64,000 nt of DNA, taken from Amia ocellicauda. Taxonomy: Eukaryota > Chordata > Actinopteri > Amiiformes > Amiidae. The stretch covers positions 16,259,501 through 16,323,500 of the forward strand of contig NC_089864.1 of NCBI RefSeq assembly GCF_036373705.1. Direction: 5' to 3'. Below the pieces are notes generated by a model. It saw nothing but the letters and a program-made list of their open reading frames with translations. It was not told the DNA's origin and ran no database searches. Position numbers and translations under genes: made by a program. Shown piece after piece: positions 1 through 32,145 of this stretch. Position 1 is the first letter of the stretch. Each line of letters begins with the position of its first letter.

Positions 1-51
1 GCACTGGCCTACCAACCTGTCAGTTTCATGGGAAATCAAAAAGGGAAGTAA
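1..51 (+). CDS. Peptide gene copy A, 3' part (exon 3 end; stop at 49-51)
   Basis: Only the end of the gene is in the window. Exon 3 ends at 52 with the donor GTAAGTC; its last codons read NQKGK followed by TAA at 49-51. The terminal exon starts at 823 after a pyrimidine-rich acceptor (TTTTTCTAG) and runs to about 950, past an AATAAA at 930-935. It is non-coding if the TAA is used. The promoter, exon 1, exon 2 and the start of exon 3 lie left of the window. The visible coding bases are identical to copies B to D, so the copy looks intact as far as it can be seen. Confidence 0.7.
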   Translation, partial: ALAYQPVSFMGNQKGK

Positions 52-929
52 GGTAAGTCGAATTCAATATTTACTAAGTATTATTAATTAATAATATTGA
101 ATGTAGTTTACTTACACAAGTTCCATGACAGCTCCATCAGCATCAGACAACTTTAACAGTGGTTCCTACAGCTATATACAAAAAGCCATTACCCACAATT
201 CTCATTTTCACAGCAAGAGGTGTATTGGTAAAAAACCCCATGAACTGCATAGCAGGTTTTAAGTTCAGAGTTTGAAATTAGTTATTGTGTAAAGTCAAGA
301 ACAATGTAATGCTACAAACATTCTTATTTAGCTCATAGGAAAATACTTGAATTATTGTTATTGATATCAGATATAGTGCTTGATTTGGGAACAATAACCC
401 ATACATACTGTATGGTATTTCAGATTGAAAAGTAATTATACAATGTTACATTTTGTATATATAAAAAGGTCACATTTTGGTACTTGAATAACTGAAGGAT
501 AGTACATTTCTACCATACTTGAAAATTGATCCATCTGGGTTTGTAGTGCAACAGAGAAATGTGCAAAAGCAACAGATCAGTTAGCATAGGATCTTAAAAA
601 CATATATAGGTGTTTTTTTTTCACATCCTATCATTAACAATCTGGTGATTTTGAAGATACAAAAATTAGCATTTCAGCAACAAGAACAGATCTGCATGGA
701 GTTCAAAAAGTGACAAGCGAGTCTTTTTAAGGAGGAGAGACAGAGAGTGGCTGGTGGTTCAGGGACCTAGAGTTTACAATATTATTATTATAACCTATTT
801 GTCTGCCTCTTCCTTTTTCTAGAGTTCATCGGAGGCTGCTGTAATCAAGACCATTCCCGCCTCGCTCTATTGAAATAAGAAACTGTGTAACAGTCTGTAT
901 AGTAGAAAGAGTGATGAGAGCATTAACTA

Positions 930-935
930 AATAAA
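930..935 (+). terminator. Poly(A) signal of peptide gene copy A
   Basis: AATAAA lies about 107 nt into exon 4 and is followed within 25 nt by a GT-rich stretch (CTGTGTTTCTG), the usual layout of a vertebrate cleavage and polyadenylation site. Confidence 0.65.
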
Positions 936-954
936 ATCCCTGTCCACAAAGCTG

Positions 955-1190
955 TGTTTCTGCCTCTCATTACCAGTGCCGAGAGCATCCTGTGTCTGTA
1001 AGGAAGGGTGCTGGCAATGCTGTGTAACTGTGCACTTGCACAACTGGGCTCACACAACATTGTGCAGCCTGTTCAAACACAAACAAGGACTTCCTAATTG
1101 CTGTCCAAGCCTTGGAAAAACTCGGGCCAATTTGACGTCATATATGTACTTTGTCAAATTCACACTGTTAGAGTGCTGATTACTGTATTT
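955..1190 (+). other. Conserved downstream block with a CRE palindrome (copy A)
   Basis: This stretch directly follows the poly(A) site and is retained in every copy, including the diverged copy E (31930-32145), pseudogene F (53575-53790) and, with two small deletions, inverted pseudogene G. It contains a perfect TGACGTCA (1133-1140), the consensus cAMP-response element, preceded by GGCCAAT. A Cys-rich frame (ASCVCKEGCWQCC) is open through it, but it has no ATG; its only start is a GTG. It may be a regulatory element or a missed exon; neither is proven. Confidence 0.4.
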
Positions 1191-1450
1191 GTCTTTAATT
1201 TACAGTAGACACACATTCACATTAGTTGCATATGGCTCCCATGCTCTGTGGTTCTGTGTTTTGAATGTTGCCTATAAACATTTTGGTTGTTTCAATTGTT
1301 CATTTAAAAAGTATGAAAACCACACATTTTCTATCAACATAGATTAGGTGACTTGAAACAAGGCTTAAATGAAACTTTCAGACAAATGAATATAAATCCG
1401 CCACATTGAATATAAATAGCAGGTTACAAAGCGAGGCAATTACATAAACT

Positions 1451-1663
1451 TTAACAATGTAGGTCAGCTGGTACTTCTGTGAAATCACACAATCCTTCAA
1501 TGAATTCTGAATTCACATTTGATTGAGCTGTATAAATACCAATAGGAGAACATCTCCGAGTCTTCTCTTGCTTCTTCACAGTGCGTTTCAAAATGCTCTT
1601 CATTACAATCATGCCAAGCAAGGTTAAAAGCAGGAAGTCATCAAATTGTAGCGCTGAACCCAT
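1451..1663 (-). other. Unrecognised 70-codon open frame, one per full unit
   Basis: An ATG-initiated frame on the minus strand with a hydrophobic stretch near its start (FDDFLLLTLLGMIVM) followed by a basic run (KRTVKKQEKTRR). That order resembles a single-pass membrane segment with a positive flank. It recurs unchanged at 10029-10241, 18618-18830 and 27212-27424. This means little, because the units are nearly identical anyway. No promoter, splice signals or homology are apparent. It may be chance or a relic of an unidentified element. Confidence 0.15.
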
Positions 1664-1797
1664 CGAAATCTATCAAATAAATAAGTAACTTATTTAATTA
1701 ACTTATATAATGTTGAAATTAATAAATGCATAAACAAATGTTGAAATATAGACAGAAAACATTATACTGTAACAGTTTATCTCAACTGAAAACCCTT

Positions 1798-2165
1798 CAG
1801 CGCTCAAAGCAAGGAGTCGCATATGGGCACAAATTAGCACCATATGTAACGAATTCAAACCAAAATATATTGTAAACGAGAAAAATAAAGTTGAGAAAAA
1901 ATGTATGTTGAAAACAAAAAGAAAACAATCGAAATCAACATGTATACAATTGTAAACAAAAAGAATTATATCAAAATTAAAACAAAAAACCTGAAAGAAA
2001 ATAATGTTAAAGCGAGAGCACTTTACGCGCTCAAATTAGCGCCATAAGTATCGCATTCAAAAAAAAAAATATTGTAAACAAACAAAAACGAGAAAAAATT
2101 GATGTTGAGATCAAAAATTAAAAAATCGATGGCGAAATGTATAGAATTGTAATAAAAAAAAAAGA
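1798..2165 (-). mobile_element. AT-rich remnant related to the Harbinger-like element at 55.4-56.9 kb
   Basis: Two diverged copies of a roughly 190-bp A-rich block (about 1798-1990 and 2020-2160) share phrases such as GCTCAAATTAGCGCCATAAG and TTGATGTTGAGAT. The same phrases appear in reverse complement in the internal arm at about 55870-56005 of the Harbinger-like element. This piece is therefore likely a decayed relative of that element. Equivalent blocks lie near 10380-10745, 18970-19333 and 27560-27925. Confidence 0.4.
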
Positions 2166-2174
2166 ACACCGAAG

Positions 2175-2410
2175 ACAGTTTGCCAGAGAAACAGGAGAAA
2201 ACTGCATTGGGACTTGGGTCAAGTGATGATGTTTATACAAAATTAAAGTGAGAAATCCAGACAGCTGCAGGGTTATCGGTGGTTTTTGCAAATCAAAGAG
2301 GGTTATTGTGACACAGGATACAATAAGGCAGATTCTAAATGTAATTTATCCACAAGGTGTACAACTCCGATGAGCTCACCATTTACAAGTACTAACACAG
2401 TACAGGTCCA
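2175..2410 (+). pseudogene. Fragment of a DDE-integrase-type transposase gene
   Basis: Two frames carry recognisable pieces: LQGYRWF, then after a frame change VTQDTIRQILNVIYPQGVQL. These match a family of integrase-like proteins common in fish and invertebrates, in which a GYRW motif is followed by a conserved TVRxxLxxLDPxGVxLR stretch. A related, longer fragment lies at 47830-48130. The reading frame is broken and stops at an in-frame TGA, so it is not functional. The family name is uncertain. Confidence 0.5.
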
Positions 2411-2484
2411 AAGATGAAATTGTGTGTTTTAAAGTCAATTTCAAGTCCAAATGTCGAAAAGTCAACTTTAAAAGTTGTTTTTTC

Positions 2485-2803
2485 ATTCACATGGCTCCAA
2501 GGCTCTTCTGTAGAATCCCCACCAGGACTCTTCCTAGAGCTGGCCGCCCGGCCAAACTGAGCGATCGGTGGAGAAGGGCCTTAGTCAGGGAGGTGACCAA
2601 AAACCCGATGGTCATTCTGACAGAGCTCCAGCGTGTCTCTGTGGAGAGAGGAGACCTTCCAGAAGAACAACCATCTCTGCAGCACTCCACCAATCAGGCC
2701 TGTATGGTAGAGTGGCCAGACGGAAGCCACTCCTCAGTAAAAGGCACCTGGAGTTTGCCAAAAGGCACCTGAAGGACTCTCAGACCATGAGAAACAAAGA
2801 TTG
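2485..2803 (+). pseudogene. Tc1-like transposase fragment
   Basis: The translation (in two frames) contains GRPAKLSDRWRRALVREV and then LHQSGLYGRVARRKPLLSKR and LEFAKRHLKDSQ. This is the order found in Tc1 transposases between the helix-turn-helix region and the first catalytic aspartate. The fragment ends at MRNK, just before the WSDET motif, so all catalytic residues are absent. A frameshift lies between the two parts. No inverted terminal repeats are visible. The sequence passes almost directly into a DIRS fragment. Confidence 0.75.
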
Positions 2804-2824
2804 AACTCTTTGATTGAATACTTT

Positions 2825-3926: not shown

Positions 3927-3927
<1 letters not shown>

Positions 3928-6975: not shown

Positions 6976-7412
6976 TGTTCCAAAATACAAAATACAAGTC
7001 TAATACGTCTCTTGCTATGAAAATGTGGGAAGCTCTGACCTGGTGTGTTAAAATGGGTGTTTTAAATCCTGGAGGTTTCTTTGGGAAATGAAGTCCCTTT
7101 GCCCATATCTTAAACATAATGTTTCAGGGTTTCCCACAGCTATATACAAAAAATCGTTGACCAACAGTACACAAGAACCTATATTGAAACAAGTGCTCTT
7201 ACTCCAATGAGGACAAAACATGCCACCTTGTTTAATATCAAATTAAAGGGGATAACTTAAGGATCTCATAAATGTGAATACTAACCACACCACATTCATA
7301 CACAGACAATAATCCATGTAAAACACATTTTGTGAAACTATCTAAAACTCATGGAGGCAGCAACTTTCCAATACACATTATTAGGGTGGAGGGGGGCAGA
7401 AAACCCAACAAT
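6976..7412. other. Unannotated stretch upstream of the copy B promoter
   Basis: No gene, terminal repeat or conserved coding frame seen. A phrase near 7133-7160 (CAGCTATATACAAAAAATCG) echoes one at 170-190 in the first intron of the next copy. The segment ends at the point where unit 4 resumes after its missing 3419 bp. Confidence 0.5.
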
Positions 7413-7444
7413 AGGATATTTAAATTGTATGACACCTGAACCAA

Positions 7445-7499
7445 CCAATCAGCAATTTGGAGGGAAAGACATTAGAAACTCGTCTAAAACATATAAAAG
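7445..7499 (+). promoter_or_regulatory. CCAAT box and TATA box of peptide gene copy B
   Basis: CCAAT at 7445-7449 and TATAAAAG at 7492-7499 are about 43 bp apart, a standard RNA polymerase II core-promoter layout. A 13-mer, CAGCAATTTGGAG, occurs twice, at 7450-7462 and 7514-7526, bracketing the TATA box. Transcription should start near 7523. The non-coding first exon then runs to 7659, where ACACAG is followed by the donor GTAATA. Confidence 0.7.
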
Positions 7500-8220
7500 C
7501 CGTGGTTAGGGACCAGCAATTTGGAGTGGAAATCCAGGAGGATATCAGGACCAGAACTTCTCCACCAAAAACCTGGAAGCTTGGCAACCAAGTCCCCAAA
7601 TCCACACAGTCTGCCAGCCCTCCCCACTATTGAACGTCTGCATAACTGAAGCTACACAGGTAATACATTTCTGCATACTATTCAAGGATTACATAAATCA
7701 CAATTACATAAAACCTAGTAGTGCATGGGCTCTGAATTGTAGGAACAGGTGGCATTTAACTTTTAATTGTATTATTTTACATATTTTGTGCCTCGACATT
7801 TTCAATCAACTGAGTTTGTATTAGTAAGGTATTGTGGTCATTTACCCAGATGATTCAGAGGATGGCCGCTGTGGGTTATATGTATAGGGGTCACTAGAAA
7901 GCAGGACTTTATTCAGCAATTATTACTTCCTCTGATATTGATCCAAGACAAACAAGCCACACTCCATCTAATGGTCTTAGGCCAATAAAACAATTACTAA
8001 GGAGAAATGAAAGGCAATTTGTCCATTGCAATATTTTGGATGCATCTTAACAGATCAGCATCCATTCACTCAATAGACTAACTACACAGCATTTAAATAT
8101 ATGAAATGATCACACTATGATAACAGGCCATGAATCAGCTGCTTTGTTAATTAAACATGCAAACTATTAAAACACAATCCCTCTGCTCCTCAGCAGGACA
8201 ACACTGAACCCAGAGGCACC

Positions 8221-8629
8221 ATGAAGACTATGATCATTCTGTTCGTCATTGCCGCGCTCTACAGCAGTAAGTGAAACCTATGACAATTCATCATCAATAA
8301 CTTTGTATTGGGCCACCATAGACTGCTTAACAGTGGAATATTTAACGAAGAAAGCAATGTAGACTTGTCCAAAATGACTACTGGAAATGTGAAGATGACA
8401 TTTTAAACAGAAATGATAAAGAGCTCTTATAACAGGCTGCCCTACAAATATATACAATGTCTGAGAAATACAGAGTAATAAAAGCCGAGTCTGTGGTTTA
8501 TGTATCTATTTGGTAACTCTATGCACAACATCTCCTCATCTGCTTTAAATGCTCTTCTTTTCAGTTTCAGCTGTATGTGCACTGGCCTACCAACCTGTCA
8601 GTTTCATGGGAAATCAAAAAGGGAAGTAA
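8221..8629 (+). CDS. Peptide gene copy B: 36-residue secreted peptide precursor
   Basis: I do not recognise this gene. Exon 1 (about 7523-7659) is non-coding. Exon 2 (8194-8266) begins after CTCCTCAG and carries the ATG at 8221, encoding MKTMIILFVIAALYS, a classic hydrophobic signal-peptide core. Exon 3 (8565-8630) finishes the signal (SAVCALA) and encodes YQPVSFMGNQKGK, with TAA at 8627-8629 just before the donor. Exon 4 (from 9401, AATAAA at 9508-9513) is 3' untranslated. The C-terminal Gly-Lys is the pattern for basic-residue trimming and C-terminal amidation, so the mature product may be a short amidated peptide of about a dozen residues. Hormone, pheromone or defence roles are all possible. 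The control signals and splice sites appear complete. Confidence 0.7.
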
Positions 8630-9507
8630 GGTAAGTCGAATTCAATATTTACTAAGTATTATTAATTAATAATATTGAATGTAGTTTACTTACACAAGTT
8701 CCATGACAGCTCCATCAGCATCAGACAACTTTAACAGTGGTTCCTACAGCTATATACAAAAAGCCATTACCCACAATTCTCATTTTCACAGCAAGAGGTG
8801 TATTGGTAAAAAACCACATGAACTGCATAGCAGGTTTTAAGTTCAGAGTTTGAAATTAGTTATTGTGTAAAGTCAAGAACAATGTAATGCTACAAACATT
8901 CTTATTTAGCTCATAGGAAAATACTTGAATTATTGTTATTGATATCAGATATAGTGCTTGATTTGGGAACAATAACCCATACATTATGTATGGTATTTCA
9001 GATTGAAAAGTAATTATACAATGTTACATTTTGTATATATAAAAAGGTCACATTTTGGTACTTGAATAACTGAAGGATAGTACATTTCTACCATACTTGA
9101 AAATTGATCCATCTGGGTTTGTAGTGCAACAGAGAAATGTGCAAAAGCAACAGATCAGTTAGCATAGGATCTTAAAAACATATATAGGTGTTTTTTTTTC
9201 ACATCCTATCATTAACAATCTGGTGATTTTGAAGATACAAAAATTAGCATTTCAGCAACAAGAACAGATCTGCATGGAGTTCAAAAAGTGACAAGCGAGT
9301 CTTTTTAAGGAGGAGAGACAGAGAGTGGCTGGTGGTTCAGGGACCTAGAGTTTACAATATTATTATTATAACCTATTTGTCTGCCTCTTCCTTTTTCTAG
9401 AGTTCATCGGAGGCTGCTGTAATCAAGACCATTCCCGCCTCGCTCTATTGAAATAAGAAACTGTGTAACAGTCTGTATAGTAGAAAGAGTGATGAGAGCA
9501 TTAACTA

Positions 9508-9513
9508 AATAAA
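9508..9513 (+). terminator. Poly(A) signal of peptide gene copy B
   Basis: AATAAA in exon 4, which starts at 9401. The downstream GT-rich element is the same as in copy A. Confidence 0.65.
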
Positions 9514-10754
9514 ATCCCTGTCCACAAAGCTGTGTTTCTGCCTCTCATTACCAGTGCTGAGAGCATCCTGTGTCTGTAAGGAAGGGTGCTGGCAATGCTG
9601 TGTAACTGTGCACTTGCACAACTGGGCTCACACAACATTGTGCAGCCTGTTCAAACACAAACAAGGACTTCCTAATTGCTGTCCAAGCCTTGGAAAAACT
9701 CGGGCCAATTTGACGTCATATATGTACTTTGTCAAATTCACACTGTTAGAGTGCTGATTACTGTATTTGTCTTTAATTTACAGTAGACACACATTCACAT
9801 TAGTTGCATATGGCTCCCATGCTCTGTGGTTCTGTGTTTTGAATGTTGCCTATAAACATTTTGGTTGTTTCAATTGTTCATTTAAAAAGTATGAAAACCA
9901 CACATTTTCTATCAACATAGATTAGGTGACTTGAAACAAGGCTTAAATGAAACTTTCAGACAAATGAATATAAATCCGCCACATTGAATATAAATAGCAG
10001 GTTACAAAGCGAGGCAATTACATAAACTTTAACAATGTAGGTCAGCTGGTACTTCTGTGAAATCACACAATCCTTCAATGAATTCTGAATTCACATTTGA
10101 TTGAGCTGTATAAATACCAATAGGAGAACATCTCCGAGTCTTCTCTTGCTTCTTCACAGTGCGTTTCAAAATGCTCTTCATTACAATCATGCCAAGCAAG
10201 GTTAAAAGCAGGAAGTCATCAAATTGTAGCGCTGAACCCATCGAAATCTATCAAATAAATAAGTAACTTATTTAATTAACTTATATAATGTTGAAATTAA
10301 TAAATGCATAAACAAATGTTGAAATATAGACAGAAAACATTATACTGTAACAGTTTATCTCAACTGAAAACCCTTCAGCGCTCAAAGCAAGGAGTCGCAT
10401 ATGGGCACAAATTAGCACCATATGTAACGAATTCAAACCAAAATATATTGTAAACGAGAAAAATAAAGTTGAGAAAAAATGTATGTTGAAAACAAAAAGA
10501 AAACAATCGAAATCAACATGTATACAATTGTAAACAAAAAGAATTATATCAAAATTAAAACAAAAAACCTGAAAGAAAATAATGTTAAAGCGAGAGCACT
10601 GTACGCGCTCAAATTAGCGCCATAAGTATCGCATTCAAAAAAAAAATATTGTAAACAAAAAAAAAAAACGAGAAAAAATTGATGTTGAGATCAAAAATTA
10701 AAAAATCGAATGCGAAATGTATAGAATTGTAATAAAAAAAAAAGAACACCGAAG

Positions 10755-11725
10755 ACAGTTTGCCAGAGAAACAGGAGAAAACTGCATTGGGACTTGGGTC
10801 AAGTGATGATGTTTATACAAAATTAAAGTGAGAAATCCAGACAGCTGCAGGGTTATCGGTGGTTTTTGCAAATCAAAGAGGGTTATTGTGACACAGGATA
10901 CAATAAGGCAGATTCTAAATGTAATTTATCCACAAGGTGTACAACTCCGATGAGCTCACCATTTACAAGTACTAACACAGTACAGGTCCAAAGATGAAAT
11001 TGTGTGTTTTAAAGTCAATTTCAAGTCCAAATGTCGAAAAGTCAACTTTAAAAGTTGTTTTTTCATTCACATGGCTCCAAGGCTCTTCTGTAGAATCCCC
11101 ACCAGGACTCTTCCTAGAGCTGGCCGCCCGGCCAAACTGAGCGATCGGTGGAGAAGGGCCTTAGTCAGGGAGGTGACCAAAAACCCGATGGTCATTCTGA
11201 CAGAGCTCCAGCGTGTCTCTGTGGAGAGAGGAGACCTTCCAGAAGAACAACCATCTCTGCAGCACTGCACCAATCAGGCCTGTATGGTAGAATGGCCAGA
11301 CGGAAGCCACTCCTCAGTAAAAGGCACCTGGAGTTTGCCAAAAGGCACCTGAAGGACTCTCAGACCATGAGAAACAAAGATTGAACTCTTTGATTGAATA
11401 CTTTCCGGATGCACTGTACATGGACACAGCCTTGGCCCCCCTCAGGACAAAGGGGATAAGGATCCTGAACTACCTGGACGACTGGCTGGTGTGCGCAGAC
11501 TCAGTTCATTGAGAGAAAAGCTCCCTCGAACCCACACAGACGGTGGGCTTCTTGGGAATGAAGCTGGACTCTCAAAAAATGCTTGCCTACCTGTCCAGAG
11601 ACAGAATCGAGTCATTGGAGAAATGCCTGGCGTCATTCAGAAGGGCATCGACTCTCCGACTGGTGAATTTTCACAATCTGTTGGGGCTGATGGTGGCCGC
11701 CTCGAATATTCTTCCCTTGGAAGAT
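10755..11725 (+). mobile_element. Unit 2 composite: integrase-type, Tc1 and DIRS fragments
   Basis: The same three broken fragments in the same order as at 2175-3145, with the same breakpoints. The Tc1 part is about 11065-11383 and the DIRS part about 11405-11725. One visible change is GCAC for CTCC in the Tc1 part, shared with units 3 and 4. The composite was therefore assembled before the array expanded. Confidence 0.7.
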
Positions 11726-12451
11726 ACATAGATGTATTTTGAATCCAGAATGATATCAAAAAGGACAAAAGACCAATCAATACATACAATAATCTGAACT
11801 GTTTTCTATGGGTGCGTTCACAAGTCGCAGACTTTCAGAATTCTGGCCAGAATCTGCAGATTCAGAAGATTCTCAGAAAGCCATGGGCTAAAGTGCTCAA
11901 AGTTTGCACATTATAACAGAATATGAACAGCCTATATCACATAGTCAACAAACTTGCAAGGTTAGTACAGAGCTCCGAACTAACCACGGGATCATCCCCA
12001 GTTAGAGCTGTTTTCAGTTCGTTTGCAATTGACACTAAAAGTGCAATACATCATTTAGCATATCAACGGTTTATGAATTATCAAACTGGTGGGCACCAGC
12101 TTCACATTGGACGGGCATTGCCCCCCAGTGCCCCTGCGTAGCAACGGCCCTGAAAACAACATTTAATTTATAAATCATGTATTTATTTTTTACAATCTAG
12201 GATGTGAGACTCATATATTGTTGACTGTAAATCTCCTATGTACTTGTGTAAATTGGAATTAGTAAATTGCATTATGCCTTGAACTGTACTGTATTACTGC
12301 ACTCTGTATTGCTCTTGTATTTTGTAAGTCGCCCTGGACAAGGGTGTCTGCTAATAAATACATAAGTCATACAGTAAGTCTAATATTAACAATATTCTGA
12401 CAATATTCTACATAGAATATGCAAAGAAAATAAATGAATACCAAAAACAGC

Positions 12452-12515
<64 letters not shown>
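12452..12515 (+). repeat. (AAT)n microsatellite, unit 2, about 21 triplets
   Basis: Perfect run, about three triplets longer than in unit 1. Confidence 0.95.
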
Positions 12516-12516
<1 letters not shown>

Positions 12517-13347
12517 ATGTTATATTACTTATCATTATTTTCTGTTATATTATTAGTTTGTTTAGTGTGAAGAGTGCACATTTGGTCATTTAATTCTTCC
12601 CACAGCAGTATGTCAGCAGCAAAAAATAAATCACTATAAACCAGCCTCCTCCAGCAGCAGTGCCCCTTCCAGTTAGCCAGATGACAGAAGTCAGGATTTT
12701 CCATTCCTCAAAGCAAGCTTAAAGTCCAGATGAGTAAATTACCATAGCAGAGCCTGATTTAAATTATTGGATTAACTGACTACGGCTGACTAGACTGAAT
12801 TACTTAAACCAGTGACGAGGAATGGGGCCCAGTTCCAGTGCTGCTTTAATCATTTGTATAAATGATTTTAATTTTGATAATTAACACTTTTCTGGTGTAG
12901 GTAAATAAAAATGTATATTGAGTCCAAGAACAAACTTACTGTGATATTGTCTTCCATAAATTGAAATGTGCATGTCATGTCTTTACTTCTATTCACATTG
13001 GAGGTAATGTGTGGGGAAAGGCTTTAAAATCACTAATTACTGCTCCGAGAGTCCCCTAACTCCACATAAATACAGAGCACTGAAAGAAAGTACATAACAG
13101 TATTTTATGTATCTTAATATTACAAAATACCAATAACATACCATTGATAGCATATCATACAACAAAGGTGTAAATTGTTATTCCAATATTATGTTCCACA
13201 ATACAATGTCAGGATTATTTCAATACAGCACACGTGTTATGCATAGCATTGCCTAGTATAATATACTTTGCTTACTTAAATGCTATTGATTCACTTTGAT
13301 CCCACCAAGAGATAATCAGAAAAAGTGCGACTAGATTAAAAATCAAA

Positions 13348-14819
13348 TAGGGCTGGCCGATAAATCGATAACAATAATTATCGGGGTAATTACTTATCTC
13401 GATAACGATATAAATATAATGTCGATAATTCGGTACAGCAGTCCAGTTCACCTCTATGACACAGCAGCAGCGTGCGGAGGAGTGACAGTAGCCCGCGGAG
13501 AGGAGCAGCCTGAAACACTGCGCCTCTCGGACCCCTGGCTCAGCCAGAGCCCTCTGTGAAACCCGGCCGTGTCGGAAGATCATTTGTTGTGGAGGAGCAG
13601 AGCGATTGTGGGTTTGGTTTGTTTCGTTTTAAAAACAAAGACCGAAAACAACACTACGAGCGATACAGCCTGATGTGGAGACGACTTGTGTGTCTATTTT
13701 ATTAATTCTGCTGTACATGATTGTAAACAGCGTAATAAATAAAAGTTTTTGTTAAGAGAGATTAGGAAGAGCTAAACGTGTATAGACAACATTATATTCA
13801 GACAAGCATTACGTTACTGTAAGAAAACATCTCCAAGTGCAACAATAAAATATTTGCTATTTATTATTATTATTATTGTTATTATTGCAATCATCATCAA
13901 GATATGTGCTAGTAGATATGTATTTTAAACGGCATAACTTGACTCCCTTAACTTATTACTCTTACTACAGATTTGTAACTCCAAACGACACTTTTGAGCG
14001 TATTATTTTAATTTGCTTAGGAGACGCCCTTAACCAGGGCAAGTTACAGTTGAAACACAATACACACGTTTCGCGATTAATCCAGATACAATATAGCAGG
14101 TTTAAAGTGTGCACACTTCAGTCATGGCGTTTATGGACACATTTATAAACCAGTCCAGCGGCTCGCCAGTCATATTTGCCGGCGCTGCAGCTTTTGAGTG
14201 CAGCTCCGAATATCATTTTAATATCTCGACAAAAAGAACCAACTGTGTGTGAATGTGTGAGAGAAAGCACCGCCAGCAGAAATAATTTGAGATCAGGGGA
14301 CATTCATAAAACATTCGGGGCTGAAGCCCCCCTAAAACATGAACCAGTCCTTAATATTTTAGAGGGAAACCCAGATCTGCTGTAGGTATTTATTCATTCA
14401 TTTAACTTGTAAAAGGACACACGTTAACTAAATTGTGTTCGCCTTGATGCTGATTGTCTCCGCTGGGCTGTTATACATCAGACTGCAGATATTTATTTTA
14501 TTGAGGAAAAAGGACTGAAATGGATTTTACTTAATTTTACTGATGCATATTTCTATGTTTTTTGTTTATCATAATTTTTTTGAACCTCAGATTTGTGAAA
14601 TGATCCACTGTTTGGCAAGTGTTTGTCATGTTCTGACCATAAAGAATAGTTTAAAACCACAATTAACTGTCTGGTTTCTTCAACTTTCACTCAGGAGCAA
14701 AAATCAGCCTTTTAACTTGAAAGGAATAATGATTTGACATTCATCGTGAAAATTATCGATATGGACTGATATGAAATATTTTATCGTGATAACATTTTTG
14801 GCCATATCGCCCAGCCCTA
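13348..14819. mobile_element. Non-autonomous hAT-like element in unit 2
   Basis: Same ends, length (1472 bp) and flanks as the unit 1 copy. It was inherited by unit duplication rather than by a new insertion. Confidence 0.7.
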
Positions 14820-16033
14820 CATTCAAATAAAGATTACTTCCTTATTTATATAATTGTATTCATCGTCTGATTTTAACAGACTGCTACATAGATTGGCTCA
14901 GCAAGAAAAACATTGAAGAGGCTGAAATAAAATCAAGATTTTCCAAAATTGCAAGATATCTTACAAAAACAAAACATGGACATTAACAAAAAATATAACT
15001 GTGGACCAAAGACTGGTCTTGTTATTTTTAATTAAATGTATTACATTGCACCATATAAGTTACTATAACATACTGGGCAGAGCTTTTATGTTTGAATTGG
15101 TTTTATTGCTTGTTACCTATAATTTCACGTCGTTTTTTTTTTTTTGTAATAGACGTTTATATCTGGTCTAATTATTGTACATTTGTTTTTGTATTTCAAT
15201 TGTTTTTTTTATTTTTTTATAAAGCATGTCATAGCTACTCAAATAAAATATCACATGTAAATACTACATTTATCTTTAAGGGTCCTGATAACTTATCCGT
15301 AGGATTAATCAATACAAATTGTGCTGTATCTTTGATACATTTTCTAGCTTTTCAGTCCATATCAGTAATATTTCATATTTAGAATTTGAAATGAAGACCT
15401 AAAAATATCTTTAGTATCTATAGTATATGTATGTGTGTTTCTGGTCAAAAGGTGGTCACAAAGTGGTCAAACCAGCAAGAGCTAGTCAGACCAGCAAGAG
15501 CAGGTCACAAGGTGGACAAACCAGCAAGAGCTGATCAAGGTGGTCAGACCAGCAGTAAACCAGTTGTTCCAAAATACAAAATACAAGTCTAATACGTCTC
15601 TTGCTATGAAAATGTGGGAAGCTCTGACCTGGTGTGTTAAAATGGGTGTTTTAAATCCTGGAGGTTTCTTTGGGAAATGAAGTCCCTTTGCCCATATCTT
15701 AAACATAATGTTTCAGGGTTTCCCACAGCTATATACAAAAAATCGTTGACCAACAGTACACAAGAACCTATATTGAAACAAGTGCTCTTACTCCAATGAG
15801 GACAAAACATGCCACCTTGTTTAATATCAAATTAAAGGGGATAACTTAAGGATCTCATAAATGTGAATACTAACCACACCACATTCATACACAGACAATT
15901 ATCCATGTAAAACACATTTTGTGAAACTATCTAAAACTCATGGAGGCAGCAACTTTCCAATACACATTATTAGGGTGGAGGGGGGCAGAAAACCCAACAA
16001 TAGGATATTTAAATTGTATGACACCTGAACCAA

Positions 16034-16088
16034 CCAATCAGCAATTTGGAGGGAAAGACATTAGAAACTCGTCTAAAACATATAAAAG
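16034..16088 (+). promoter_or_regulatory. CCAAT box and TATA box of peptide gene copy C
   Basis: CCAAT at 16034-16038 and TATAAAAG at 16081-16088. The non-coding exon 1 ends at 16248 with the donor GTAATA. The region differs from copy B by single bases only, such as GTGAAA for GTGGAA in the exon 1 leader. Confidence 0.7.
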
Positions 16089-16809
16089 CCGTGGTTAGGG
16101 ACCAGCAATTTGGAGTGAAAATCCAGGAGGATATCAGGACCAGAACTTCTCCACCAAAAACCTGGAAGCTTGGCAACCAAGTCCCCAAATCCACACAGTC
16201 TGCCAGCCCTCCCCACTATTGAACGTCTGCATAACTGAAGCTACACAGGTAATACATTTCTGCATACTATTCAAGGATTACATAAATCACAATTACATAA
16301 AACCTAGTAGTGCATGGGCTCTGAATTGTAGGAACAGGTGGAATTTAACTTTTAATTGTATTATTTTACATATTTTGTGCCTCGACATTTTCAATCAACT
16401 GAGTTTGTATTAGGAAGGTATTGTGGTCATTTACCCAGATGATTCAGAGGATGGCCGCTGTGGGTTATATGTATAGGGGTCACTAGAAAGCAGGACTTTA
16501 TTCAGCAATTATTACTTCCTCTGATATTGATCCAAGACAAACAAGCCACACTCCATCTAATGGTCTTAGGCCAATAAAACAATTACTAAGGAGAAATGAA
16601 AGGCAATTTGTCCATTGCAATATTTTGGATGCATCTTAACAGATCAGCATCCATTCACTCAATAGACTAACTACACAGCATTTAAATATATGAAATGATC
16701 ACACTATGATAACAGGCCATGAATCAGCTGCCTTGTTAATTAAACATGCAAACTATTAAAACACAATCCCTCTGCTCCTCAGCAGGACAACACTGAACCC
16801 AGAGGCACC

Positions 16810-17218
16810 ATGAAGACTATGATCATTCTGTTCGTCATTGCCACGCTCTACAGCAGTAAGTGAAACCTATGACAATTCATCATCAATAACTTTGTATTGG
16901 GCCACCATAGACTGCTTAACAGTGGAATATTTAACGAAGAAAGCAATGTAGACTTGTCCAAAATGACTACTGGAAATGTGAAGATGACATTTTAAACAGA
17001 AATGATAAAGAGCTCTTATAACAGGCTGCCCTACAAATATATACAATGTCTGAGAAATACAGAGTAATAAAAGCCGAGTCTGTGGTTTATGTATCTATTT
17101 GGTAACTCTATGCACAACATCTCCTCATCTGCTTTAAATGCTCTTCTTTTCAGTTTCAGCTGTATGTGCACTGGCCTACCAACCTGTCAGTTTCATGGGA
17201 AATCAAAAAGGGAAGTAA
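16810..17218 (+). CDS. Peptide gene copy C: 36-residue secreted peptide precursor
   Basis: Exon 2 is 16783-16855 with ATG at 16810, exon 3 is 17154-17219 with TAA at 17216-17218, and exon 4 starts at 17990. The signal peptide has one replacement relative to copy B, ACG for GCG (Ala to Thr, MKTMIILFVIATLYS), a mild change in the hydrophobic core that it shares with copy D. The mature region YQPVSFMGNQKGK is unchanged. All splice consensus bases are kept, including the two overlapping donors at the end of exon 3. Function unknown. Confidence 0.7.
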
Positions 17219-18096
17219 GGTAAGTCGAATTCAATATTTACTAAGTATTATTAATTAATAATATTGAATGTAGTTTACTTACACAAGTTCCATGACAGCT
17301 CCATCAGCATCAGACAACTTTAACAGTGGTTCCTACAGCTATATACAAAAAGCCATTACCCACAATTCTCATTTTCACAGCAAGAGGTGTATTGGTAAAA
17401 AACCACATGAACTGCATAGCAGGTTTTAAGTTCAGAGTTTGAAATTAGTTATTGTGTAAAGTCAAGAACAATGTAATGCTACAAACATTCTTATTTAGCT
17501 CATAGGAAAATACTTGAATTATTGTTATTGATATCAGATATAGTGCTTGATTTGGGAACAATAACCCATACATTATGTATGGTATTTCAGATTGAAAAGT
17601 AATTATACAATGTTACATTTTGTATATATAAAAAGGTCACATTTTGGTACTTGAATAACTGAAGGATAGTACATTTCTACCATACTTGAAAATTGATCCA
17701 TCTGGGTTTGTAGTGCAACAGAGAAATGTGCAAAAGCAACAGATCAGTTAGCATAGGATCTTAAAAACATATATAGGTGTTTTTTTTTCACATCCTATCA
17801 TTAACAATCTGGTGATTTTGAAGATACAAAAATTAGCATTTCAGCAACAAGAACAGATCTGCATGGAGTTCAAAAAGTGACAAGCGAGTCTTTTTAAGGA
17901 GGAGAGACAGAGAGTGGCTGGTGGTTCAGGGACCTAGAGTTTACAATATTATTATTATAACCTATTTGTCTGCCTCTTCCTTTTTCTAGAGTTCATCGGA
18001 GGCTGCTGTAATCAAGACCATTCCCGCCTCGCTCTATTGAAATAAGAAACTGTGTAACAGTCTGTATAGTAGAAAGAGTGATGAGAGCATTAACTA

Positions 18097-18102
18097 AATA
18101 AA
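18097..18102 (+). terminator. Poly(A) signal of peptide gene copy C
   Basis: AATAAA in the last exon, which begins at 17990. Confidence 0.65.
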
Positions 18103-19343
18103 ATCCCTGTCCACAAAGCTGTGTTTCTGCCTCTCATTACCAGTGCCGAGAGCATCCTGTGTCTGTAAGGAAGGGTGCTGGCAATGCTGTGTAACTGTGC
18201 ACTTGCACAACTGGGCTCACACAACATTGTGCAGCCTGTTCAAACACAAACAAGGACTTCCTAATTGCTGTCCAAGCCTTGGAAAAACTCGGGCCAATTT
18301 GACGTCATATATGTACTTTGTCAAATTCACACTGTTAGAGTGCTGATTACTGTATTTGTCTTTAATTTACAGTAGACACACATTCACATTAGTTGCATAT
18401 GGCTCCCATGCTCTGTGGTTCTGTGTTTTGAATGTTGCCTATAAACATTTTGGTTGTTTCAATTGTTCATTTAAAAAGTATGAAAACCACACATTTTCTA
18501 TCAACATAGATTAGGTGACTTGAAACAAGGCTTAAATGAAACTTTCAGACAAATGAATATAAATCCGCCACATTGAATATAAATAGCAGGTTACAAAGCG
18601 AGGCAATTACATAAACTTTAACAATGTAGGTCAGCTGGTACTTCTGTGAAATCACACAATCCTTCAATGAATTCTGAATTCACATTTGATTGAGCTGTAT
18701 AAATACCAATAGGAGAACATCTCCGAGTCTTCTCTTGCTTCTTCACAGTGCGTTTCAAAATGCTCTTCATTACAATCATGCCAAGCAAGGTTAAAAGCAG
18801 GAAGTCATCAAATTGTAGCGCTGAACCCATCGAAATCTATCAAATAAATAAGTAACTTATTTAATTAACTTATATAATGTTGAAATTAATAAATGCATAA
18901 ACAAATGTTGAAATATAGACAGAAAACATTATACTGTAACAGTTTATCTCAACTGAAAACCCTTCAGCGCTCAAAGCAAGGAGTCGCATATGGGCACAAA
19001 TTAGCACCATATGTAACGAATTCAAACCAAAATATATTGTAAACGAGAAAAATAAAGTTGAGAAAAAATGTATGTTGAAAACAAAAAGAAAACAATCGAA
19101 ATCAACATGTATACAATTGTAAACAAAAAGAATTATATCAAAATTAAAACAAAAAACCTGAAAGAAAATAATGTTAAAGCGAGAGCACTGTACGCGCTCA
19201 AATTAGCGCCATAAGTATCGCATTCAAAAAAAAAAATATTGTAAACAAAAAAAAAAACGAGAAAAAATTGATGTTGAGATCAAAAATTAAAAAATCGAAT
19301 GCGAAATGTATAGAATTGTAATAAAAAAAAAAGAACACCGAAG

Positions 19344-23414: not shown

Positions 23415-24627
23415 CATTCAAATAAAGATTACTTCCTTATTTATATAATTGTATTCATCGTCTGATTTTAACAGACTGCTACATAGATTGGCTCAGCAAG
23501 AAAAACATTGAAGAGGCTGAAATAAAATCAAGATTTTCCAAAATTGCAAGATATCTTACAAAAACAAAACATGGACATTAACAAAAAATATAACTGTGGA
23601 CCAAAGACTGGTCTTGTTATTTTTAATTAAATGTATTACATTGCACCATATAAGTTACTATAACATACTGGGCAGAGCTTTTATGTTTGAATTGGTTTTA
23701 TTGCTTGTTACCTATAATTTCACGTCGTTTTTTTTTTTTGTAATAGACGTTTATATCTGGTCTAATTATTGTACATTTGTTTTTGTATTTCAATTGTTTT
23801 TTTTATTTTTTTATAAAGCATGTCATAGCTACTCAAATAAAATATCACATGTAAATACTACATTTATCTTTAAGGGTCCTGATAACTTATCCGTAGGATT
23901 AATCAATACAAATTGTGCTGTATCTTTGATACATTTTCTAGCTTTTCAGTCCATATCAGTAATATTTCATATTTAGAATTTGAAATGAAGACCTAAAAAT
24001 ATCTTTAGTATCTATAGTATATGTATGTGTGTTTCTGGTCAAAAGGTGGTCACAAAGTGGTCAAACCAGCAAGAGCTAGTCAGACCAGCAAGAGCAGGTC
24101 ACAAGGTGGACAAACCAGCAAGAGCTGATCAAGGTGGTCAGACCAGCAGTAAACCAGTTGTTCCAAAATACAAAATACAAGTCTAATACGTCTCTTGCTA
24201 TGAAAATGTGGGAAGCTCTGACCTGGTGTGTTAAAATGGGTGTTTTAAATCCTGGAGGTTTCTTTGGGAAATGAAGTCCCTTTGCCCATATCTTAAACAT
24301 AATGTTTCAGGGTTTCCCACAGCTATATACAAAAAATCGTTGACCAACAGTACACAAGAACCTATATTGAAACAAGTGCTCTTACTCCAATGAGGACAAA
24401 ACATGCCACCTTGTTTAATATCAAATTAAAGGGGATAACTTAAGGATCTCATAAATGTGAATACTAACCACACCACATTCATACACAGACAATAATCCAT
24501 GTAAAACACATTTTGTGAAACTATCTAAAACTCATGGAGGCAGCAACTTTCCAATACACATTATTAGGGTGGAGGGGGGCAGAAAACCCAACAATAGGAT
24601 ATTTAAATTGTATGACACCTGAACCAA

Positions 24628-24682
24628 CCAATCAGCAATTTGGAGGGAAAGACATTAGAAACTCGTCTAAAACATATAAAAG
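24628..24682 (+). promoter_or_regulatory. CCAAT box and TATA box of peptide gene copy D
   Basis: CCAAT at 24628-24632 and TATAAAAG at 24675-24682. Exon 1 ends at 24842 with the donor GTAATA. Confidence 0.7.
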
Positions 24683-25403
24683 CCGTGGTTAGGGACCAGC
24701 AATTTGGAGTGGAAATCCAGGAGGATATCAGGACCAGAACTTCTCCACCAAAAACCTGGAAGCTTGGCAACCAAGTCCCCAAATCCACACAGTCTGCCAG
24801 CCCTCCCCACTATTGAACGTCTGCATAACTGAAGCTACACAGGTAATACATTTCTGCATACTATTCAAGGATTACATAAATCACAATTACATAAAACCTA
24901 GTAGTGCATGGGCTCTGAATTGTAGGAACAGGTGGAATTTAACTTTTAATTGTATTATTTTACATATTTTGTGCCTCGACATTTTCAATCAACTGAGTTT
25001 GTATTAGGAAGGTATTGTGGTCATTTACCCAGATGATTCAGAGGATGGCCGCTGTGGGTTATATGTATAGGGGTCACTAGAAAGCAGGACTTTATTCAGC
25101 AATTATTACTTCCTCTGATATTGATCCAAGACAAACAAGCCACACTCCATCTAATGGTCTTAGGCCAATAAAACAATTACTAAGGAGAAATGAAAGGCAA
25201 TTTGTCCATTGCAATATTTTGGATGCATCTTAACAGATCAGCATCCATTCACTCAATAGACTAACTACACAGCATTTAAATATATGAAATGATCACACTA
25301 TGATAACAGGCCATGAATCAGCTGCCTTGTTAATTAAACATGCAAACTATTAAAACACAATCCCTCTGCTCCTCAGCAGGACAACACTGAACCCAGAGGC
25401 ACC

Positions 25404-25812
25404 ATGAAGACTATGATCATTCTGTTCGTCATTGCCACGCTCTACAGCAGTAAGTGAAACCTATGACAATTCATCATCAATAACTTTGTATTGGGCCACC
25501 ATAGACTGCTTAACAGTGGAATATTTAACGAAGAAAGCAATGTAGACTTGTCCAAAATGACTACTGGAAATGTGAAGATGACATTTTAAACAGAAATGAT
25601 AAAGAGCTCTTATAACAGGCTGCCCTACAAATATATACAATGTCTGAGAAATACAGAGTAATAAAAGCCGAGTCTGTGGTTTATGTATCTATTTGGTAAC
25701 TCTATGCACAACATCTCCTCATCTGCTTTAAATGCTCTTCTTTTCAGTTTCAGCTGTATGTGCACTGGCCTACCAACCTGTCAGTTTCATGGGAAATCAA
25801 AAAGGGAAGTAA
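25404..25812 (+). CDS. Peptide gene copy D: 36-residue secreted peptide precursor
   Basis: Exon 2 is 25377-25449 with ATG at 25404, exon 3 is 25748-25813 with TAA at 25810-25812, and exon 4 begins at 26584. The protein is identical to copy C, including the Ala-to-Thr change in the signal peptide. It is the last copy of the homogenised type. Its downstream flank holds the Tc1 and DIRS fragments, but the hAT-like element is missing. Function unknown. Confidence 0.7.
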
Positions 25813-26690
25813 GGTAAGTCGAATTCAATATTTACTAAGTATTATTAATTAATAATATTGAATGTAGTTTACTTACACAAGTTCCATGACAGCTCCATCA
25901 GCATCAGACAACTTTAACAGTGGTTCCTACAGCTATATACAAAAAGCCATTACCCACAATTCTCATTTTCACAGCAAGAGGTGTATTGGTAAAAAACCAC
26001 ATGAACTGCATAGCAGGTTTTAAGTTCAGAGTTTGAAATTAGTTATTGTGTAAAGTCAAGAACAATGTAATGCTACAAACATTCTTATTTAGCTCATAGG
26101 AAAATACTTGAATTATTGTTATTGATATCAGATATAGTGCTTGATTTGGGAACAATAACCCATACATTATGTATGGTATTTCAGATTGAAAAGTAATTAT
26201 ACAATGTTACATTTTGTATATATAAAAAGGTCACATTTTGGTACTTGAATAACTGAAGGATAGTACATTTCTACCATACTTGAAAATTGATCCATCTGGG
26301 TTTGTAGTGCAACAGAGAAATGTGCAAAAGCAACAGATCAGTTAGCATAGGATCTTAAAAACATATATAGGTGTTTTTTTTTCACATCCTATCATTAACA
26401 ATCTGGTGATTTTGAAGATACAAAAATTAGCATTTCAGCAACAAGAACAGATCTGCATGGAGTTCAAAAAGTGACAAGCGAGTCTTTTTAAGGAGGAGAG
26501 ACAGAGAGTGGCTGGTGGTTCAGGGACCTAGAGTTTACAATATTATTATTATAACCTATTTGTCTGCCTCTTCCTTTTTCTAGAGTTCATCGGAGGCTGC
26601 TGTAATCAAGACCATTCCCGCCTCGCTCTATTGAAATAAGAAACTGTGTAACAGTCTGTATAGTAGAAAGAGTGATGAGAGCATTAACTA

Positions 26691-26696
26691 AATAAA
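26691..26696 (+). terminator. Poly(A) signal of peptide gene copy D
   Basis: AATAAA in the last exon, which begins at 26584. Confidence 0.65.
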
Positions 26697-27935
26697 ATCC
26701 CTGTCCACAAAGCTGTGTTTCTGCCTCTCATTACCAGTGCCGAGAGCATCCTGTGTCTGTAAGGAAGGGTGCTGGCAATGCTGTGTAACTGTGCACTTGC
26801 ACAACTGGGCTCACACAACATTGTGCAGCCTGTTCAAACACAAACAAGGACTTCCTAATTGCTGTCCAAGCCTTGGAAAAACTCGGGCCAATTTGACGTC
26901 ATATATGTACTTTGTCAAATTCACACTGTTAGAGTGCTGATTACTGTATTTGTCTTTAATTTACAGTAGACACACATTCACATTAGTTGCATATGGCTCC
27001 CATGCTCTGTGGTTCTGTGTTTTGAATGTTGCCTATAAACATTTTGGTTGTTTCAATTGTTCATTTAAAAAGTATGAAAACCACACATTTTCTATCAACA
27101 TAGATTAGGTGACTTGAAACAAGGCTTAAATGAAACTTTCAGACAAATGAATATAAATCCGCCACATTGAATATAAATAGCAGGTTACAAAGCGAGGCAA
27201 TTACATAAACTTTAACAATGTAGGTCAGCTGGTACTTCTGTGAAATCACACAATCCTTCAATGAATTCTGAATTCACATTTGATTGAGCTGTATAAATAC
27301 CAATAGGAGAACATCTCCGAGTCTTCTCTTGCTTCTTCACAGTGCGTTTCAAAATGCTCTTCATTACAATCATGCCAAGCAAGGTTAAAAGCAGGAAGTC
27401 ATCAAATTGTAGCGCTGAACCCATCGAAATCTATCAAATAAATAAGTAACTTATTTAATTAACTTATATAATGTTGAAATTAATAAATGCATAAACAAAT
27501 GTTGAAATATAGACAGAAAACATTATACTGTAACAGTTTATCTCAACTGAAAACCCTTCAGCGCTCAAAGCAAGGAGTCGCATATGGGCACAAATTAGCA
27601 CCATATGTAACGAATTCAAACCAAAATATATTGTAAACGAGAAAAATAAAGTTGAGAAAAAATGTATGTTGAAAACAAAAAGAAAACAATCGAAATCAAC
27701 ATGTATACAATTGTAAACAAAAAGAATTATATCAAAATTAAAACAAAAAACCTGAAAGAAAATAATGTTAAAGCGAGAGCACTGTACCCGCTCAAATTAG
27801 CGCCATAAGTATCGCATTCAAAAAAAAAAATATTGTAAACAAACAAAAACGAGAAAAAATTGATGTTGAGATCAAAAATTAAAAAATCGAATGCGAAATG
27901 TATAGAATTGTAATAAAAAAAAAAGAACACCGAAG

Positions 27936-29637: not shown

Positions 29638-29638
29638 A

Positions 29639-29690
<52 letters not shown>
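29638..29690 (+). repeat. (AAT)n microsatellite, unit 4, about 17 triplets, interrupted start
   Basis: Begins with CAATACAAATAAT instead of the pure AAT run seen in units 1-3, so this tract has a different mutational history. Confidence 0.9.
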
Positions 29691-29691
<1 letters not shown>

Positions 29692-29789
29692 ATGTTATAT
29701 TACTTATCATTATTTTCTGTTATATTATTAGTTTGTTTAGTGTGAAGAGTGCACATTAGGATATTTAAATTGTATGACACCCGAACCAA

Positions 29790-29844
29790 CCAATCAGCAA
29801 CTTGGAGAGAAAGACATTAGAAACTCGTCTAAAACATAAAAAAG
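29790..29844 (+). promoter_or_regulatory. Promoter of diverged copy E with weakened TATA box
   Basis: CCAAT is kept at 29790-29794, but the TATA box reads TAAAAAAG (29837-29844), a single T-to-A change from TATAAAAG. This should weaken TBP binding. The two 13-mers flanking the TATA box are also altered (CAGCAACTTGGAG and CAGCAATTTTGAG). Exon 1 ends at 30013 with the donor GTAGTA. Confidence 0.6.
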
Positions 29845-30575
29845 CCATGGTAAGGGACCAGCAATTTTGAGTGGAAATCCAGGAGGATATCAGGACCAGA
29901 ACTTCTCCACCAAAAACTTGGAAGCTTGGCAACCAAGTTTTCAAGTCCACGCAGTCTGCCAGCCCTCCCCACTATTGAACGTCTGCATAACTGAAGCTCG
30001 ATAAGCCACACAGGTAGTACATTTCTGCATACTATTCAAGGATTAGTTCAATCACAATTACATAAAACCTAGCTGTGCATGGGCTCTGAATTGTAGGAGC
30101 AGGTGGCATTTAACTTCTAATTGTATTATTTTACATATTTTGTGCCTCGACATTTTCAATCAACTGAGTTCGTATTAGTAAGGTATTGTGGTCATTTACC
30201 CAGTTGATTTCAGAGGATGGCCGCTGTGGGTTATATGTATAGGGGTCACTAGAAAGCAGGACTTTATTCAGCAATTATTACTTCCTCTGATATTGATCCA
30301 AGACAAACAAGCCACACTCCATCTAAACGTCTTAGGCCAATAAAACAATTACTAAGGAGAAATGAAAGGCAATTTGTCCATTGCAACATTTTGGCTGCAT
30401 CTTAACAGATCAGCATCCATTCACTCAATAGACTAACTACACAGCATTTAAATATATGAAATGATCACACTATGATAACAGGCCATGCCTCAGCTGCTTT
30501 GTTAAAGAAATATGCAAACTATTAAAACACAATCCCTCTGCTCCTCAGCAGGACAACACTGAACCCAGAGGCACC

Positions 30576-31045
30576 ATGAAGACTATGATCATACTGTTCA
30601 TCATTGGCGCACTCTACAGCAGTAAGTGAAACCTATGACAATTCATCATCAATAACGGTGTATTGTGTCACAATAGACTGATTAACAGTGGAATATTTAA
30701 CTAAGAAAGCAATGTAGACTTGTGCAAAATGACTACTGGAAATGTGAAGATGACATTCTAAACAGAAATGATAAAGAGCTCTTTTAACAGGCAGCCCTAC
30801 AAATATATACAATGTCTGAAAAATACAGAGTAATAAAAGCTGAGTCTGTGGTTTATGTATCTATTTGGAAACTCTATACACACCATCTCTCCAGCATTAA
30901 GAAAGTCACCCGTTGTGTCTGTGTCAGTCTAGTGCTGTATTGATCCCACCCTCATCTGCTTTAAATGCTCTTCTTTTCAGTTTCAGCTGTAGGTGCACTA
31001 GCATACCAACCTGTGAATTACATAGGAAGTCAAAAAGGGAAGTAA
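30576..31045 (+). CDS. Peptide gene copy E (diverged): 36-residue secreted peptide precursor
   Basis: Exon 2 is 30549-30621 with ATG at 30576, exon 3 is 30981-31046 with TAA at 31043-31045, and exon 4 starts at 31789 with AATAAA at 31896-31901. The intron between exons 2 and 3 is about 61 bp longer than in copies B-D. The product begins MKTMIILFIIGALYS and ends YQPVNYIGSQKGK. Against copy B I count seven replacement and five synonymous changes over 36 codons. Most replacements are conservative (V/I, F/Y, M/I, S/N), which suggests weak protein-level constraint. The Cys in the signal tail of copies A-D is Gly here. Gly-Lys at the C-terminus, both tandem donors and the stop are kept. It is the copy nearest kcnc2. 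Confidence 0.7.
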
Positions 31046-32145
31046 GGTAAGTCGAATTAAAAGTTATTAAGACTAAGTATTATTATTTAATAATATTGAA
31101 TGTAGTTTACTTACACGAGTTCCATGACAGCTCTATCTGAGTCAGACAACCACCCTTACCCACAATTCTCATTTTCACAGCAAGAGGTGTATTGGTGAAA
31201 AACACCATGAACTGCATAGCAGGTTTTAAGTTCAGAGTTTGAAATTAGTTATTGTGTAAAGTCAAGAACAATGTAATGCTGCAAACATTCTTATTTAGCT
31301 CATAGGAAAATACTTGAATTATTGTTATTGATATCAGATATAGTGCTTGATTTGGGAACAATAACCCATACATTATGTATGGTATTTCAGATTGAAAAGT
31401 AATTATACAATGTTACATTTTGTATATATAAAAAGGTCACATTGTGGTACTTGAATAACTGAAGGATAGTACATTTCTACCATATTTGAAAATTGTTCCA
31501 TCTGGGTTTGTAGTGTAGGAGAGAAATGTGCAAAAGCAACAGATCAGTTAGCATAGGATCTTTAAAACATATACAGGTGTTTTTTCATTACATCATATCA
31601 TTAACAAACTGGTGATTTTGAAGATACAAACATCAGCATTTCAGCAACAAGAGCAAATCTGCATGGAGTTCAAAAAGTGACAAGCGAGTCTTTTTAAGGA
31701 GGAGAGACAGAGAGTGGCTGGTGGTTCAGGGACCTAGAGTTACAATATTATTATTATAACCTATTTGTCTGTGTCTACCTTTTTCTAGAGTTCATCGGAG
31801 GCTGCTGTAATCAAGACAATTCCAAACTTGCTCTATTGAAATAAGAAACTGTGTAACATCCTGTATAGTAGAAAGAGTGACGAGACTGTTAACTAAATAA
31901 AATCCCTGTCCAAAAACTGTGTTTCTGCCTCTCATTACCAGTGCTGAGAGCATCCTGTGTCTGTAAGGAAGGGTGCTGGCAATGCTGTGTAACTGTGCAC
32001 TTGCACAACTGGGCTCACACAACATTGTGCAGCCTGTTCAAACACAAACAAGGACTTCCTAATTGCTGTCCAAGCCTTGGAAAAACTCGGGCCAATTTGA
32101 CGTCAATTTGTCAAGGTCAGTTAGAGTACTGATTAATGTATTCCC
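30994..32145 (+). repeat. Terminal diverged array copy next to kcnc2
   Basis: This segment holds exons 3 and 4 of copy E and the conserved downstream block. It follows the other units with several percent divergence and lacks a short insertion present in the others near 155-190. Similarity to the array units fades at about 32145, roughly 130 bp before the splice donor of kcnc2 exon 1. It is probably the founder or the least converted copy. Confidence 0.8.
31896..31901 (+). terminator. Poly(A) signal of peptide gene copy E
   Basis: AATAAA in the last exon. The GT-rich downstream element is kept. Confidence 0.65.

Follow-up and report, generated by a model that had tools for sequence, protein, structure and literature searches.

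The stretch of the Amia ocellicauda genome analyzed here (the window; 64,000 nucleotides, C21:16259501-16323500, contig NC_089864.1) begins inside a tandem array of a very small gene that is predicted to encode a secreted peptide. Comparison of the window with itself showed that positions 1-29768 are made up of head-to-tail units of ~8.58-8.59 kb sharing 99.6-99.7% identity, and that positions 29753-32154 match the gene block of the unit piecewise, at ~90-96%. The window holds three complete copies and one copy truncated by its start (all termed A), together with one diverged copy (B). A search of the genome assembly (988 Mb in 385 contigs) placed a fifth A copy upstream of the window, at C21:16248717, so that the assembled array comprises five near-identical copies and one diverged copy. 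The original prediction, made from the letters of the window, of at least four near-identical copies and one diverged copy standing head to tail in units of about 8.6 kb, with the window starting inside the array, was therefore borne out by both self-comparison and assembly. The gene block takes up ~27% of a unit and its coding part ~1.3%.

Pairs of units differ at 7 to 34 sites, from 0.08% between A2 and A3 up to 0.60% between A0 and A4, and divergence rises roughly with distance along the array. Among the 47 variable sites counted, 14 place at least two units on either side, and 12 of these 14 set a left block of units apart from a right one. The distances from copy to copy are 9613, 8578, 8589 and 8594 bp. 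Head-to-tail units whose similarity is weighted toward neighbors are the signature of unequal exchange, and this is the pattern expected if such exchange proceeds stepwise.

In copy A4, a TATA-like box (~24673-24682) is followed by a putative non-coding exon 1 (~24705-24842), whose splice donor lies at 24843. Exon 2 begins at ~25377 and carries the start codon (ATG, 25404); the second coding exon terminates in TAAG ahead of GTAAGT, and an AATAAA lies at 26691. With its TATA-like box, splice sites, 36-codon open frame and AATAAA, the A gene stands as a predicted gene for a protein of 36 residues. The second coding exons of intact family members have lengths that are multiples of three (66, 69, 75 and 84), although at C20:5131609, where two donors are possible, this holds only with the second donor. 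The stop codon varies among TAA, TAG and TGA and lies at, or no more than 10 bases from, the end of this exon. A splice from the first coding exon directly to the last exon, yielding another small protein, was considered and disfavored.

The window array represents a single branch of a larger family, which numbers about 26 tiny genes for predicted secreted peptides. A 28-base pattern from the start of the second coding exon occurs at 29 sites in the genome, none of which needs three mismatches, and a 33-base pattern from the first coding exon likewise occurs at 29 sites, all with zero or one mismatch; neither pattern was found in the reversed control, and both counts may be lower bounds. A first coding exon and a stop-terminated frame accompany 26 of the 29 second-exon sites (25 of 29 frames are intact under another donor rule), which gives eight loci on C21, five on C20, eight on C7 and five on C25. 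Both exons were found at 27 loci, and 26 of these have a TATA-like box, the exception being a broken copy at C21:14.967 Mb. Three census sites, including remnant C of the window, have the first coding exon only, and two second-exon sites on C7 yielded no first coding exon. BLAST and reading revealed another broken copy, L034 on C23 (C23:29743901-29746200), in which the first coding exon lacks two bases and unrelated sequence occupies the expected position of the mature exon. Spacings are about 9.3-10.3 kb, 5.0 kb and 5.7 kb on C7 and about 9 and 11 kb in a downstream set on C21, while C20 has duplicated copies and C25 one spaced and one inverted pair. The claim of a recent tandem amplification of a micro-peptide gene thus stood with regard to amplification, predicted signal peptide and introns, but not with regard to a single gene.

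Two further features were noticed at these loci. A region between two parts of the C7 array (L026, C7:70001-80000) contains open frames that seem retrovirus-like by eye. A long degenerate minisatellite (about 77-84% identity between shifted alignments) lies beside the C20 copies at C20:5133900-5138500 (L017-L018), with related sequence at 5154020-5155000, where the stretch examined ends.

The family encodes 13 distinct mature peptides of 11-19 residues that begin directly after an Ala-Leu-Ala motif. From this motif and general rules for such sites, we infer that the signal is cleaved there; no residues separate the motif from the mature part, and there is no propeptide. Cysteines are absent from 11 of the 13 peptides, and the other two have one each. 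Side-chain charge ranges from -2 to +3 over 12 peptides and is positive in six of them. The C-terminus is GK or GR in six peptides and G in two. Such an end is an amidation signal, and C-terminal amidation is likely for these 8 of 13 peptides.

Searches for relatives covered parts of the family. In Pfam, a scan of 5 of the 13 peptide types gave one match (expect value, E, 0.21) below the curated cut-off; in NCBIfam, a prokaryote library, one of 12 members gave one weak match (E 0.098). A profile search of solved structures returned nothing convincing, its five matches (E 1.4-1.7) being to a viral capsid/ORF2 protein, and Rfam returned nothing convincing on window positions 17000-33000. A protein database search with one member as the query found no candidate sharing enough words. 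These limited searches weakly support an absence of related proteins. Kazal-like and Ly6-like features noticed by eye lacked support and were dropped.

To read the family as the dosage expansion of one gene is too small a reading; its main feature is a hypervariable mature segment set between conserved flanks. We compared 26 genes, all with stop-terminated frames, drawn from regions covering 28 of the 29 sites, with the broken copy at C21:14.967 Mb excluded and two C7 sites dropped. The resulting 325 gene pairs overlap in their genes and hence lack independence; where mature segments differed in length, they were aligned and gap positions excluded. Peptides differ in 303 of the pairs; in every one of these the mature segment has diverged more than the signal, and in 302 it has also diverged more than intron 2. 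In the 38 pairs whose second introns are less than 6% apart, median divergence is 0.31 in the mature segment, 0.029 in intron 2 and 0.014 in the signal, and a one-sided Fisher test gave p<0.01 in 26 of these pairs. The clearest pair, one of eleven chosen for this count, is L016/L017 on C20, where 12 of 33 aligned sites (36%) differ in the mature segment; intron 2 has 3 differences in 313 sites (1%), the signal has none in 69 and the first 300 bases of intron 3 have 5. Among six chosen pairs inspected for the course of identity, the dip in L016/L017 is confined to the mature segment, and neighboring bases are mostly 93-100% identical. In an alignment of 12 proteins, out of 13 mature types, the 23-residue signal has 13 invariant columns, and there is none beyond it. 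A constant signal is therefore combined with a mature part that is more diverged than the introns.

Gene trees agree with decoupled histories of flanks and cassettes. The tree of the 5' flank places all six C7 genes used in a single group (support 0.98), whereas the tree of the mature segment (only 61 bases) groups two of those six with a C25 pair (support 0.95). Homogenization of the flanks by conversion, with the cassettes staying distinct, seems the simplest reading of these data.

Several observations weigh against a reading in which a peptide-coding cassette is kept diverse by selection between uniform flanks. Twelve of the 38 close pairs did not reach significance: the five A-B pairs, with p between 0.08 and 0.095, five pairs from C7 and two from C25. 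Intron 3, too, aligns poorly in places in some pairs, and between A and B the signal region is fast as well (8/69). The ratio of nonsynonymous to synonymous differences per site (pN/pS) in the mature segment, computed pairwise for 12 genes in three groups, is ~0.7-2.3 where finite. Synonymous sites are raised too, at ~0.36 compared with 0.03 in intron 2 for L022/L028, so fast amino-acid change alone is not a sufficient explanation; with this and the modest pN/pS, the data fall short of proving positive selection on amino acids. The cleavage and amidation calls come from reading motifs. Finally, the last exon was compared with intron 2 over its first 120 bases in 28 pairs; it is the better conserved of the two in 21, the worse in 5 and equal in 2, and it may have a further coding or other role. 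A coding reading of this exon was not adopted, since no upstream exon ending in the required phase was found, and we provisionally treat it as 3' untranslated. By eye, many of the changes in frame 1 of this exon (e.g., window 26584-26703) were judged silent.

The explanation that we favor, at a probability of roughly two in three, is a family of secreted micro-peptides, often amidated and outward-acting in a pheromone- or defense-like manner, that has been locally multiplied and in which the mature part is kept diverse. In this scenario, each gene would provide a 23-residue signal and then one linear mature peptide of 11-19 residues without a propeptide. Unequal crossing-over would have multiplied the genes head to tail at C21 and C7, with spaced or inverted pairs arising at C20 and C25. 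The flanks would be homogenized between copies, with diversifying selection or, less likely, local hypermutation keeping the mature segment different. The peptides would have their effect outside the animal that makes them, either as chemical signals or in defense. Analogy with toxin, ESP and myticalin families makes such outward action probable; it does not separate pheromone-like from defense-like action. A broader proposal, which we regard as possible but tentative, is that a non-teleost ray-finned fish possesses a repertoire of outward-acting peptide signals built on a swappable cassette of 33-57 bp that encodes the entire released peptide, the flanks being made uniform by conversion and the cassette being kept or made different by selection or a local mutational process.

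Linear peptides that lack a cysteine framework and frequently end in GK, GR or G would also suit hormones or neuropeptides, that is, endogenous signaling peptides whose copies have become subfunctionalized. This alternative appears unlikely, as the mature part is the least conserved part here. According to passages of PMC10501145, it is the mature part that signaling precursors conserve, whereas in toxin precursors the signal is constant and the toxin region varies. To antimicrobial peptides of the constant-signal, hypervariable-mature kind, which would be the favored explanation in narrower form, we would give a small chance. Its multigene, fast-evolving character and broken copies fit, but half of the 12 peptides for which charge was computed are not positive, so the family as a whole is not cationic, there is no propeptide, and most known antimicrobial classes are longer than these peptides. 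Mussel myticalins, as presented in parts of PMC5577615, nevertheless share the precursor logic.

The family might alternatively have no function and consist of unstable segmental duplications that carry a young open frame, as copies lying among transposon pieces and the broken copies (the three first-exon-only sites, two on C7, C21:14.967 Mb and C23) could suggest. We consider this improbable, given that 26 of 29 frames are open despite mature segments differing by up to about half, that the second coding exon keeps to multiples of three, and that the variable stretch of the clearest pair stops at the predicted cleavage site on one side and at the exon end on the other. A local mutational mechanism, rather than selection, might diversify the mature segment, a view that fits alongside the other parts of the favored explanation. 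In its favor, synonymous sites are raised like nonsynonymous ones, yet neighboring bases in the clearest pair are nearly unchanged. The same picture, however, would result from flank conversion combined with selection against cassette conversion, and the two C7 genes whose mature segment is nearer the C25 type fit old, retained types, which leaves the mutational mechanism doubtful. That the A array is an assembly artefact, as the near identity of its units could indicate, is very unlikely: divergence grows along the array, the four spacings all differ, and the C7 arrays have other spacings again. The uneven distances and the left/right split of variable sites, in particular, disfavor simple repetition of one unit by the assembly.

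The A/B/C branch differs from the rest of the family in its promoter region. A CATAAA box lies closely upstream of the first coding exon in 20 of the 26 genes, with an ATGCAAA stretch slightly farther upstream in the aligned copies, remnant C excepted. From the A genes, the B gene and remnant C, ~55-60 bases including the CATAAA box are missing, and the A and B genes have a different TATA-like box and a putative spliced exon ~0.7 kb upstream. Parts of this upstream block (Table 1) recur at four other places in the genome, where no peptide exons were found in the 2.5-3.0 kb examined; the relative at C20:20572330 lies near a frame that resembles, by eye, a RING/TRIM-type gene. The lost segment, the alternative TATA-like box and exon, and the relatives of the block elsewhere point to promoter and exon capture. 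Before amplification, this branch probably swapped the ancestral promoter for a captured upstream promoter and exon.

The neighboring gene was correctly named as kcnc2 in the original prediction. The nearest solved structures to its coding exon 1 are of Kv3.1. The best match of a human Kv3.2 query is exon 2, at C21:16165924-16166859 on the minus strand with 89% identity; a further match lies at C21:16163999. The positions of exons 1 and 2 place the A array and copy B inside the first intron of kcnc2 (~125 kb), on the opposite strand. Genome-wide, four Kv3-like matches reach 72% identity or more across ~300 residues, and Kv1-like matches stand in two groups of three neighbors. Counts are higher in teleosts, so that a source among the ray-finned fishes without the teleost genome duplication is likely. 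Minus-strand open frames at window 39634-39870 and 42257-42547 resemble exons of caps2, the neighbor of KCNC2 in human. Directly after remnant C, at window 53786-53977, comes a copy of the end of kcnc2 exon 1, so part of the junction between B and kcnc2 has been duplicated ~22 kb away.

Table 1. Features of the window and related sites (window positions unless a contig is given)
Feature	Position	Strand	Details
Copy A1	1..1189	+	Truncated by window start within mature-peptide exon; last exon from 823
Copy A2, gene block	7408..9767	+	Coding exons 8221-8266, 8565-8630; last exon from 9401
Copy A3, gene block	15997..18356	+	Coding exons 16810-16855, 17154-17219; last exon from 17990
Copy A4, gene block	24591..26950	+	Coding exons 25404-25449, 25748-25813; last exon from 26584
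Diverged copy B	29753..32154	+	Abuts array end directly; coding exons 30576-30621, 30981-31046; last exon from 31789
Tandem unit	8579..17167	+	8589 bp
Other tandem units	1-8578, 17168-25761	+	
Partial unit	25762-29768	+	
Upstream block	24440..25260	+	CCAAT-like and TATA-like boxes, putative first exon with splice donor
Relatives of upstream block	C10:37782762, C20:20572330, C9:33089900, C7:28451448		
kcnc2 coding exon 1	32274..32840	-	Kv3 T1 domain
Remnant C	52183..53786	+	First coding exon retained; mature exon not found; then copied kcnc2 exon 1 piece
Remnant D	59098..59761	-	Only end of last intron, last exon and downstream sequence

Sequences that look like mobile elements also lie in the window. 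Two inverted copies with 97.5% identity, at window 40436-41666 and 61833-63059, resemble a Tc1-like transposon with long open frames, and similar open frames occur in L009, L012, L013, L017 and L027. Other small open frames of the unit were rejected as genes; they look like transposon pieces or chance frames, one having a weak transposase match (E 0.014).

Families with a constant signal and a hypervariable peptide mark the dealings of an organism with prey, microbes or mates, and annotation probably overlooks peptides of fewer than 45 codons. A fish family whose variability is limited to a few dozen bases within near-identical flanks would allow a direct test of selection against targeted mutation. 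The window array itself would exemplify likely promoter capture followed by tandem amplification within an intron of a channel gene.

The pattern of stable signal and introns with a radically changing peptide is already known from snail toxins and mouse pheromones. Exon 1 of the rodent ESP pheromone genes is non-coding, as is the putative exon 1 of the A/B branch. The portions of PMC3477143 that treat these genes describe a large family with conserved signals, fast secreted parts and gene conversion, in which the signal is mostly in exon 2 and the secreted part mostly in exon 3. The peptide family seems to resemble them in all these respects, including the exon split, a likeness of architecture. 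It differs in that only 11-19 residues follow the signal, part of the signal lies in the second coding exon, the genes are spread over several contigs and the variable segment is sharply bounded. Conotoxins, according to passages in PMC10501145, likewise join a conserved signal to a hypervariable toxin region; in contrast, the present family has no spacer (pro) region and no cysteine framework, and it belongs to a vertebrate, so it does not fall among the conotoxins.

For the mussel myticalins, parts of PMC5577615 report a conserved signal, a hypervariable linear mature peptide and a first exon that is only 5' untranslated, the last feature being also what we infer for A/B. Myticalins are cationic and have a C-terminal propeptide, whereas the peptides described here are charged in either direction and no propeptide was seen. 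Antimicrobial precursors of frogs and teleosts, to judge from titles cited in PMC5577615, also pair a conserved signal with a hypermutable mature part. This resemblance, too, is one of architecture, and the family of A. ocellicauda departs from those precursors in having neither a propeptide nor a consistent positive charge.

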